From the NCBI RefSeq assembly GCF_900188005.1, contig NZ_FZNR01000019.1, positions 62,001 through 126,000 on the forward strand: 64,000 nucleotides of DNA. The letters are read 5' to 3'. The position numbers and the translations under genes are program-made. Source of the stretch: Actinoplanes regularis (lineage in GTDB: Bacteria > Actinomycetota > Actinomycetes > Mycobacteriales > Micromonosporaceae). Each line of letters opens with the position of its first letter. Position 1 is the first letter of the stretch. Below, piece after piece: positions 7,144 to 53,395 of the stretch. The notes under the pieces are model-generated. The model was not told the origin of the DNA. It did no database searches and worked only from the letters and a program-made list of their open reading frames with translations.

Positions 7144-7320
7144 CTCGGCACAGTTCGCGGGTTACGCGTCCGCCGGTCGCTCAGTGGTGCCGGGATAGAC
7201 GACTGACCAGGGCCGCGCAGGGCCGATCGCGTCACCGGCCGTCGTGGCCGGGGTGCCGTCCGACAGCACGTCCGCTGCCAGCTCCGCGAAGCTGGACAAG
7301 TCCGGGTGGCCGCCGCGGCC

Positions 7321-7694
7321 GGCGGTTGGCGGATGGGTGCTGGCGCTCGCCAGCCACCGTCCGTGTCTGGTCGCCGTCCCGGCCGCCGCCGGCGGTTGGC
7401 GGATGGGTGCTGATGCTCGCCAGCCACCGTCCGCGTCTGGTCGCCGTCCCGGCCGCCGCCTGCGGTCCGGGGTGGACGCTGGCGCTCGCGGCCACCGTCC
7501 GTTTCGAGTCGCCGTTTCGAGTCGCCGTTTCGGGTCGCCGTTTCGGCTGCGGCCGGCGGTTGGCGGATGGGTGCTGGCGCTCGCCAGCCACCGTCCGTGT
7601 CTGGTCGCCGTTCCGGCCGCCGCCTGTGGCTCGTGGGTGGGCGCTGATGCTCGCCAGCCACCGTCCGCGTCTGGTCGCCGTTCCGGCCGCTGCC
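7321..7694 (+). repeat. Tandem array of about five 70-bp units
   Basis: Units at 7321-7390, 7391-7460, 7461-7554 (diverged and expanded), 7555-7624 and 7625-7694. They share a core GCTCGCCAGCCACCGTCCG followed by GTCTGGTCGCCGT and CCGGCCGC. Units 1, 2 and 4 are nearly identical. A sixth, decayed start follows at 7695. The period of 70 (remainder 1 on division by 3) argues against a coding repeat. Confidence 0.85.
7501..7552 (+). repeat. 13-bp microrepeat inside the third 70-bp unit
   Basis: GTTTCGAGTCGCC occurs at 7501-7513 and 7514-7526, GTTTCGGGTCGCC at 7527-7539, and a partial copy at 7540-7552. This local expansion explains why the third unit is 94 bases long instead of 70. Confidence 0.8.
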
Positions 7695-8019
7695 TGCGGT
7701 CCGGGGGTGGGCGCGTTTGCTTTCCCAGGGGTACGGCGGGATTGCGGAAACTTACGGTCCGGCTGGTGCTGATGGTCGTGTCTCGGCCTGGGATACAGCC
7801 GCCAGACCCAGCCGAGCGACTTCGGCTGGGCCACAGCGACGTAACAACCGCGTCGACGCGACCATGACGACCAGCCGGACCCTGACGCGAGCCGACGCCA
7901 CCGCGAACGCGGAAACTTTGCACGGGACCCCGGGCCGAGCACCGCGCAAACCCGAGATGTCGCCGCAACGGCCCACCTACCAGGACCACCCACCCGCATT
8001 CCGGGACGACCCCGCCCCG

Positions 8020-8157
8020 CCGCCCACCGCGAGCGGCGTGACCGGCCGCAACCCGCCGACCCTCGCCGCCTACTGCGGGCGGCGTGACCGGCTGCAACCC
8101 GCCGACCCCCGCCGCCCACTGCGAGCGGCGTGACCGGCTGCAACTCGCCGACCACAC
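8020..8157 (+). repeat. Three tandem 46-bp units
   Basis: Units at 8020-8065, 8066-8111 and 8112-8157 share GCGGCGTGACCGGC and GCAACCCGCCGACC blocks with a few substitutions. The period is 46, again not a multiple of three. No dyad, origin or terminator function is evident. Confidence 0.8.
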
Positions 8158-50774: not shown

Positions 50775-51946
<1,172 letters not shown>

Positions 51947-51950
<4 letters not shown>

Positions 51951-52606
51951 CCGCGGTCTGTTGCGACACCGTCGCGGAGGCGGTCGCCGGAATCCGCGAC
52001 GGGTCGACCGTGCTGATCGGTGGCTTCGGGCTGGCCGGGATGCCGGTGCAGCTGATCGACGCGCTGATCGGGCAGGGCGCCACCGACCTCACCGTGGTCT
52101 CCAACAACGCCGGCAACGGTGATACGGGGCTCGCCGCGCTGCTGGCGAAGGGCCGCGTACGCAAGATGATCTGCTCGTTCCCGCGACAGTCCGACTCGTG
52201 GGTCTTCGACGGCCTCTACCGGGCCGGGAGGATCGAACTCGAGGTGGTGCCGCAGGGCAATCTCGCCGAGAGGATGCGCGCCGCCGGCGCGGGCATCGGC
52301 GCGTTCTACTGCCCGACCGCGGTCGGCACACCGCTCGCCGAGGGCAAGGAGATCAGGGAGATCGAAGGGCGGACGTACGTCCTGGAGTACCCGATCAAGG
52401 GCGACGTGGCGCTGATCGGCGCCCACCGCTCGGACCGGATGGGCAACCTGGTCTACCGCAAGACCGCCCGGAACTTCGGCCCGGTCATGGCGACCGCCGG
52501 GGAGCTGGTGATCGCCCAGGTGAGCGAGATCGTCGAGACCGGCGAGCTCGACCCGGAAGCGATCGTGACCCCGAGCATCTACGTCGACCGGGTGGTGGCG
52601 GCATGA
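51947..52606 (+). CDS. pcaI: 3-oxoadipate/3-oxoacid CoA-transferase subunit A
   Basis: 219 aa from ATG 51947. Family I CoA-transferase alpha subunit: DGSTVLIGGFGLAGMPVQLI, LTVVSNNAGNGDTGLAALL, the GIGAFYCPTAVGT motif (GAFYTPTG-like) and GDVALIGAHRSDRMGNLVY. It transfers CoA from succinyl-CoA to 3-oxoadipate together with subunit B. Its stop forms an ATGA overlap with the first small reading frame of the 77-bp repeat, not with pcaJ. Confidence 0.88.
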
Positions 52607-52683
52607 GCGAGCTTGCGAGCGAGTCGGTTGGCTCAGTTGTCAGCTCATGTCGACGCCGGAGCGCAGCGGAGGTGGCGGTATGA
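52603..52683 (+). CDS. Small reading frame in first 77-bp copy
   Basis: 26 codons, MSELASESVGSVV... ending in TGA at 52681-52683, which overlaps the next ATG as ATGA. It probably keeps ribosomes moving from pcaI towards pcaJ rather than making a functional peptide. Confidence 0.3.
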   Translation: MSELASESVGSVVSSCRRRSAAEVAV

Positions 52684-52756
52684 GCGAGCTTGCGAGCGAA
52701 TCGGTTGGCTCAGTTGTTGGCTCATGTCGACGCCGGAGCGCAGCGGAGGTGGCGGC
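52603..52756 (+). repeat. Tandem 77-bp MIRU-like element between pcaI and pcaJ
   Basis: Two copies, 52603-52679 and 52680-52756, differ at four positions (21, 39, 40 and 77 of the unit). Each begins with ATGAGC at a stop/start overlap and ends with GGAGGTGGCGG, so each supplies a ribosome binding site seven bases before the next ATG. The copies separate pcaI from pcaJ, genes that otherwise would overlap directly. Size, ATGA-flanked insertion and internal reading frame resemble mycobacterial interspersed repetitive units. Confidence 0.85.
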
Positions 52757-52760
52757 ATGA
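52680..52760 (+). CDS. Small reading frame in second 77-bp copy
   Basis: 26 codons, nearly identical to the first copy, ending in TGA at 52758-52760 that overlaps the pcaJ ATG at 52757. The two frames and pcaJ form a chain of ATGA overlaps. Confidence 0.3.
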   Translation: MSELASESVGSVVGSCRRRSAAEVAA

Positions 52761-53395
52761 GCCTCGACAAGCATGAGATGGCGGCTCTGGTGGCTCGCGA
52801 CATCCGGCCCGGCTCCTTCGTGAACCTGGGGATCGGCCAGCCCACCCTGGTCGCGGACCACCTGCCGGCCGACGCGGGCATCGTCCTGCACACCGAGAAC
52901 GGCATGCTCAACATGGGTCCGGCCGCGACCGGCGCCCTGATCGACCCGGACCTGATCAACGCCGGCAAGGTCCCGGTGACCGAGCTGCCCGGATCGGCGT
53001 ACTTCCACCACGCCGACTCGTTCGCCATGATGCGCGGCGGCCACCTGGACGTCTGTGTGCTCGGTGCCTTCCAGGTGTCGGCGCGCGGCGACCTCGCCAA
53101 CTGGCACACCGGCGAACCGGACGCGATCCCGGCCGTCGGCGGTGCGATGGATCTGGCGGTCGGCGCGAAGAACGTCTACGTGATGATGACGCTCTTCGCC
53201 AAGGACGGCACCCCGAAGCTGGTCCCGGACTGCACGTATCCGCTGACCGGGCTCGGCTGTGTCGATCGTGTCTACACGGACCTGGCCACCTTCGTCATCG
53301 CCCCCGAGGGCGTCGTCGTCCGGGAGACCTACGGCATCACGTTCGCCGAACTCGGCGAGCGGCTGGCGGTGCCGCTGCTGCGCCTCGACGGGTAG
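52757..53395 (+). CDS. pcaJ: 3-oxoadipate/3-oxoacid CoA-transferase subunit B
   Basis: 212 aa from ATG 52757; its GGAGG ribosome binding site lies within the upstream repeat copy. Beta-subunit motifs: NLGIGQPTLVADHLP, the catalytic Glu in HTENGMLNMGP (ENG), LGAFQVSARGDLANW and YPLTGLGCVDRVYTDLATF. With pcaI it forms the active transferase. Confidence 0.88.
   Translation: MSLDKHEMAALVARDIRPGSFVNLGIGQPTLVADHLPADAGIVLHTENGMLNMGPAATGALIDPDLINAGKVPVTELPGSAYFHHADSFAMMRGGHLDVCVLGAFQVSARGDLANWHTGEPDAIPAVGGAMDLAVGAKNVYVMMTLFAKDGTPKLVPDCTYPLTGLGCVDRVYTDLATFVIAPEGVVVRETYGITFAELGERLAVPLLRLDG

Follow-up and report, generated by a model that had tools for sequence, protein, structure and literature searches.

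The window analysed here, a stretch of 64,000 nucleotides from Actinoplanes regularis, carries on its forward strand a row of thiolase, pcaI and pcaJ genes, as assigned from the list of open reading frames (ORFs) and from protein family models. The thiolase gene (50775–51950, + strand) encodes a pcaF-like acetyl-CoA C-acyltransferase, which scores above the cut-off of NCBIfam TIGR01930 and below that of TIGR02430 (pcaF). The other two genes encode the subunits of a 3-oxoacid CoA-transferase: subunit A by pcaI/scoA (51947–52606, + strand, 219 aa; TIGR02429, pcaI_scoA_fam, E = 8e-103, above the cut-off) and subunit B by pcaJ/scoB (52757–53395, + strand, 212 aa; TIGR02428, pcaJ_scoB_fam, E = 1e-76, above the cut-off). 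The names pcaI and pcaJ are used at the family level, as TIGR02429 and TIGR02428 do not tell pcaIJ from scoAB. The thiolase gene and pcaI meet in an ATGA stop/start overlap (51947–51950, + strand), which is the same type of site in its empty form.

Between pcaI and pcaJ, two repeat units of 77 bp follow each other on the + strand (unit 1, 52603–52679; unit 2, 52680–52756), differing at 4 of 77 positions and also detected with TRF (period 77, 2.2 copies, 94% matches, span 52594–52762). The stop codon of pcaI (TGA, 52604–52606) overlaps the ATG at 52603, which is the first base of unit 1. Relay frame 1, which opens at this ATG (52603–52683, + strand; 26 codons and TGA), shares 4 nt with the end of pcaI and another 4 nt with the start of relay frame 2. 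The same 4-nt overlap joins relay frame 2 (52680–52760, + strand; 26 codons and TGA) to the start of pcaJ; the relay peptides are MSELASESVGSVVSSCRRRSAAEVAV and MSELASESVGSVVGSCRRRSAAEVAA. Each unit brings a GGAGG placed 7 nt before the next ATG (52668–52672 in unit 1; 52745–52749 in unit 2, before the ATG of pcaJ; both + strand). This arrangement matches to the base the original prediction of two 77-bp copies at the pcaI/pcaJ ATGA junction, each with a 26-codon frame and a GGAGG. Sites of this kind, [AG]TGA flanked by ORFs of at least 60 and at least 80 codons, make up just 87 of the 128,000 strand positions in the window. TRF also reported further tandem repeats in the window, at 7312–7714 (period 70, also 94 and 13) and at 8015–8153 (period 46).

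Copies across the A. regularis genome

Searching the A. regularis assembly (G000; 10.03 Mb in 76 contigs) with the window dimer gave at least 51 matches (a lower bound, with 40 of 134 candidates scored), and searching it with R1, a sequence-only profile built from 63 units mainly of loci carrying the exact head of the unit, gave at least 131 matches (again a lower bound, with 150 of 12,788 candidates scored). The census was based on 86 loci of this genome, among which the window copy is L068, with units re-called by two nucleotide profiles, and came to at least 88 arrays and at least 138 units. Most arrays hold one copy (51) or two (26), with three copies in 9 and four in 2. The left edge was ATGA in 81 of the 88 arrays, GTGA in 3 (for two of which, L234 and L243, the head is truncated and the edge extrapolated) and CTGA in 1, while 3 had no TGA at the expected place. 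The expectation that other stop/start junctions of this genome would carry copies was thus borne out by the 81 arrays that begin at ATGA. Plasmid and phage records gave no match when searched with the 154-bp array of the window.

On the downstream side, 83 of the 88 arrays had a relay that led into a same-strand ORF of at least 80 codons, by an overlap of 4 nt in 69 and by in-frame fusion in 14. The 80-codon criterion flatters these counts, as DNA so rich in GC often contains long frames by chance. The remaining five comprise two broken arrays (L221 and L212, the latter with only an 11-codon ORF after the element) and three that were unscored in the relay count and have same-strand ORFs of 65, 382 and 147 codons from the right edge. 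On the upstream side, an ORF of at least 60 codons ended at the element in 73 of 85 arrays and was absent in 12, whose elements may lie on the start codon of a first gene. The genes preceded by the element in this genome also include those for transporters, response regulators, glycosyltransferases and secretion ATPases, among others. The argument that the element serves two subunits needed in equal amounts is therefore not specific to it, as genes of many other types lie downstream.

Altered copies and empty sites

Copies that depart from the canonical geometry allowed us to ask how far the relay is kept. The geometry was changed in 39 of 85 arrays, and the relay was kept in 37 of these (23 by overlap, 14 by fusion; P = 2.8e-5 if the frame alone gave two thirds), or in 33 of 39 by a stricter count that admits only domain-supported fusions (P = 0.010). 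The overlap survives losses of 12 nt (L032, L048 and L049) or 3 nt (L031), and one extra base at the unit boundary produces a continuous frame in L034, L035 and L054. Truncations can make the element head the N-terminus of the next protein. A domain scan of 12 of the 14 fused frames (L052 and L234 were left out) returned a Pfam or NCBIfam match in frame for 10, including ABC_tran, T2SSE, Glycos_transf_2 and VTC, with the permease and response-regulator matches lying below the NCBIfam curated cut-offs, and no Pfam or NCBIfam domain for L215 and L228. As a separate observation, the element or its fused head starts similar ABC ATPase genes with a KTFPGV motif in L036 and L037 of A. regularis and in L091 and L129 of named genomes.

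Differences from the consensus in 69 units fell on codon positions 1, 2 and 3 in 195, 137 and 216 cases, and since all three positions vary, the open frame appears to be kept more than the peptide. GGAGG was present in 71 of 73 aligned units. Identity was 0.952 among units of the same array (45 pairs) versus 0.850 among units of different arrays (2583 pairs; reached by 0 of 1000 permutations), and identical pairs were found 9 times within arrays and never between them. This higher similarity within arrays suggests that tandem copies multiply locally.

REP/BIME and MITE repeats are small, dispersed and non-autonomous, and REP/BIME elements have an inverted-repeat stem. The present repeat, being likewise small, dispersed, non-autonomous and free of a transposase within the unit, could be taken for an ordinary intergenic repeat of this sort that is tolerated where it landed, with its frame and GGAGG as by-products. 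However, it is tied to start codons, with 81 of 88 arrays starting exactly at ATGA and 83 of 88 leading into a same-strand ORF, and the relay is mostly kept in altered copies. In addition, no inverted-repeat stem was seen above shuffles in the five units folded, and no covarying pair was found. We consider this explanation very improbable.

Relatives were used to compare occupied and unoccupied sites. Of 60 genomes searched for PcaJ within the genus, 51 matched, including A. regularis itself, and 30 of these 51 loci were examined, 29 of them from relatives. The exact head was found at pcaIJ in one of the 29 (L252, genome G348), as a single unit with 91% identity to the best-matching A. regularis unit and 88% to unit 2 of the window. 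Other relatives have a bare overlap, for example ATGA in L249, L251 and L253 or GTGA in L254 and L261, while some have other spacers of 38–53 nt, or of about 130 nt in L259. Unit number at this junction thus varies by species, from 0 through 1 (G348) to 2 (A. regularis), and the concern that relatives carry the same spacer as an ordinary pcaIJ leader did not hold, with a unit in 1 of 29 loci. ATGA-type junctions at both edges and the empty sites in relatives support the interpretation of the pcaIJ element as an insertion. At another junction, in front of dmpG, 26 loci were compared (from 30 of 40 matching loci), and bare ATGA in L307, L309 and L315 stands beside two units in A. regularis (L045). 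The edges of the L045 array are ATGA on the left and GTGA on the right, which may reflect drift of a start codon that the insertion had released.

Among the pcaIJ and dmpG junctions that lack the element, several have exactly the form of natural ATGA gene pairs (−4 overlap) with termination–reinitiation coupling, whereas the occupied junctions have at least one tiny frame interposed and a GGAGG added. Because several sister species already have the ATGA overlap without the element, coupling would be preserved by the insertion and not created by it. Three loci differ in other ways. The insert of about 130 nt in L259 is a different one, with a frame MTACTERH...EEGAA whose TGA overlaps the pcaJ ATG, so that the relay rule may hold for unrelated inserts too; L270 has several short ATGAG...ATGAG segments between the pcaIJ genes, which are not the MSELASES unit; and in L327 a head lies at the very edge of the locus, away from the dmpG junction.

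Taken with the geometry and recurrence of the arrays, the empty sites of relatives, the relay kept in most copies and the local similarity of tandem copies, these data lead us to interpret the element, with a probability of about 0.78, as a dispersed insertion repeat that encodes no transposase and survives at start codons by preserving translational coupling. It is a real and widespread feature that, as its frames read, keeps translation open through its site. The pcaIJ element would be one array of a repeat dispersed over ATGA starts (GTGA in some lineages), mostly at stop/start overlaps. Since the unit runs from its ATG up to the next ATGA, it has a small frame of its own with a 4-nt overlap between its stop and the following start, and it would also supply a Shine–Dalgarno (SD) sequence. 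Ribosomes ending pcaI would then start relay frame 1, pass to the start of relay frame 2 and from there to the start of pcaJ, and the translational coupling of the operon would survive the insertion. Such passage of ribosomes along the relay is predicted from the frames, and the element probably is, or was, mobile. Its position on start codons would reflect either selection or a mechanism specific for this target. Tandem copies would arise locally, and decayed copies would persist while the relay is intact or where in-frame fusion has turned the head into a new N-terminus of the downstream protein.

Distribution beyond A. regularis

The exact 23-nt head of the unit was found in at least 100 stretches of a species-level genome collection and recurs in many genera of Actinomycetota, including Pseudonocardia, Kutzneria, Actinoplanes, Amycolatopsis, Kibdelosporangium, Actinophytocola, Saccharothrix, Rhodococcus, Nocardia and Trebonia; as the search used the exact 23-mer, identity of the head among these loci is by construction. 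The 101 arrays in 100 of these loci comprised 74 overlaps, 19 fusions (counted by frame, without a domain check), 4 that run off the locus and 4 broken ones, in 3 of which the chain passes one start and enters an ORF of 27, 33 or 57 codons (under the limit of 60). Two units also precede the pcaJ/scoB gene (TIGR02428) of a Pseudonocardia metagenome-assembled genome (L124), from a genus that differs from that of the window. In the named Actinoplanes loci L072, L077, L106 and L144, units end in RRRS[AE]AE, as they do in the window.

Profile R1 matched at least 127 of 298 genomes of the order, in at least 36 of 77 genera (E ≤ 1e-3). In a phylum-wide draw at E ≤ 1e-5 it matched at least 3 of 396 genomes (A. 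regularis, one of the same order and one other of the phylum), and at least 14 other genomes of the same family or order in that draw gave no match. Both counts are lower bounds, with 16 candidates scored per genome in the order and 12 in the phylum draw, and the difference in E-value means that the two figures are not directly comparable. Among 32 loci found by profile in these searches (leaving out L170 of A. regularis), the first base was G in 20 and A in 12, and 30 reached a downstream ORF of at least 60 codons, with L178 broken and L180 unscored; this set is less biased than the exact-head loci but not independent of them, since R1 derives mainly from these. The GTGA form is present in other families and reaches seven tandem units in L183. 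Synonymous positions of the head are conserved too (30 of the 32 loci have A at position 21, for example); R1 itself favours such heads, and the pattern hints at a constraint at the DNA or RNA level, or at recent spread. The middle of the unit differs greatly from genus to genus, but its frame is maintained.

This pattern bears on whether the unit is a gene for a conserved microprotein (MSELASES...) that was duplicated in between the genes of operons and whose function lies in the peptide itself. Canonical units with an intact 26-codon frame and the recurrence of the MSELASES head across genera would fit such a gene. However, substitutions fall on all codon positions, the middle diverges strongly between genera with the frame kept, copies are fused with one another or with proteins downstream, and conservation of the head extends to synonymous positions, which together make the microprotein reading very improbable. 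An insertion repeat that preserves coupling is our preferred reading of these features too. Two loci in this material are of a different kind: L195 (genus g24, same family) has another head, MSERQRANHQHSAVVPHGDAERSEVAA, with a similar tail, the same relay and two copies, and L131 (1664, + strand) has the head peptide repeated within one ORF, MSELASESMRQGELASESMRQGELASES..., apparently by a short-period duplication of the head.

Comparison with mycobacterial interspersed repetitive units

The original prediction had likened the element to the mycobacterial interspersed repetitive units (MIRUs), which were reportedly described by Supply et al. in 1997 with DTGA as the target. The prediction had drawn on size class and logic, and both can be compared with published accounts. 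In the accessible text of a 2025 review, MIRUs are apparently mobile, insert at start codons and carry an internal ORF coupled at a spacing of −4 (PMC12548453), and units of 53 and 77 bp are given for the M. tuberculosis complex in the accessible part of another paper (PMC2453075). As to hosts, the available part of a third paper names M. leprae and the M. tuberculosis complex as the only carriers of MIRUs (PMC4213456), and the review places them in many mycobacteria (PMC12548453). The present element is MIRU-like in its site (ATGA in 81 and GTGA in 3 of 88 A. regularis arrays, with empty sites in relatives), in a small frame overlapping the next gene by 4 nt (69 of 88 arrays, with fusion in 14; a likeness of geometry only), and in its size and tandem variation (a unit of 77 bp, with 1–4 copies in A. 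regularis and 0–2 at pcaIJ between species).

For a direct comparison, RegX3 matches came from 77 of the 78 genomes of a genus taken to be Mycobacterium on the strength of RegX3 identities of up to 99%, and 30 loci were examined. The regX3 start was found in 27 of these, 14 with at least one unit of the 53-bp type or longer; the other junctions were a 22-nt remnant-like spacer in L284, an overlap of −4 in 9 and an overlap of −1 in 3. In L299, a 10-codon frame between senX3 and regX3 is followed by five 18-codon frames, which read as a relay into regX3. Profiles of the present family gave no hit to the senX3–regX3 units of the 30 loci up to E = 10. In pairwise alignments to MIRU units, the scores of two of four units were reached by 2 and 4 of 500 shuffles, and those of the other two by 304 and 92. 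Comparing the last 36 nt before regX3, we found that 6 of 14 MIRU tails resemble the present tails above all 102 control junctions and that the other 8 were reached by 1 to 21 controls, in a comparison where only 11 of the 102 controls are SD-matched and the MIRU rows are related to one another. The heads differ, and the similarity, which is suggestive, is confined to the 3′ tail, GAGCG[C/A]AGCG ... GAGG.

These results uphold the claimed MIRU relationship in part. The architecture agrees (ATGA-to-ATGA insertion, relay frame, tandem copies and the 77-bp class), but no profile hit was obtained at MIRU units. As far as its frames and junctions can be read, the element clearly works like a MIRU, given that the senX3–regX3 repeat of L299 reads as the same kind of relay; membership among MIRUs by descent would be a further step and is unproven.

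The senX3–regX3 region also provides the model for another explanation, in which the element is a regulatory leader acting as promoter, attenuator or structured RNA. In M. tuberculosis, the MIRU-bearing intergenic region can drive senX3-independent expression of regX3, according to the accessible part of one study (PMC4213456). Within the present element, however, no sigma-70-like promoter (the promoter type scanned for) or terminator was found, five folded units had z values of −1.4 to +1.8 relative to shuffles, and the consensus fold had no pair changed on both sides. We regard a leader as improbable, and a coupling-preserving insertion repeat remains the reading that we prefer.

Repeats of this kind outside mycobacteria were not found described in the open literature, including the accessible parts of PMC12548453, PMC4213456, PMC2453075, PMC2267715 and PMC9189399; subscription papers lie beyond this scope, and absence is thus unproved. 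Within the open text available, 'MIRU-like' had a single match, to a Trichodesmium species name, and 'MSELASES' had none in the open literature, again with subscription papers beyond the scope. The element would bring the working principle of MIRUs to a soil-type actinomycete, with more than 100 units in one genome. Its empty sites and many altered copies form a natural experiment on termination–reinitiation with known ancestral states. They also point to a route from short repeats to N-terminal protein extensions, which matters for the annotation of start sites, and they make it possible to test in harmless bacteria how repeats of this sort came to occupy start codons, a question of long standing.

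A broader proposal, which we put forward tentatively and consider unlikely as it stands, is a superfamily of start-codon parasites without a transposase of their own, spread over a bacterial order and beyond, of which MIRUs would be one branch. Its members would combine a constant head and a common SD-bearing tail with a middle that is free to vary, would spread through a mechanism with start codons as its target, perhaps acting at the level of RNA or the ribosome, and would decay into new N-termini of host proteins. As for hosts, A. regularis belongs to family f1 and the genus with the RegX3 matches to family f8, and the present family occurs in many non-mycobacterial genera. Heads were also found in records named Mycobacterium and Mycolicibacterium (L109 and L096), where the rest of a canonical unit does not accompany them.
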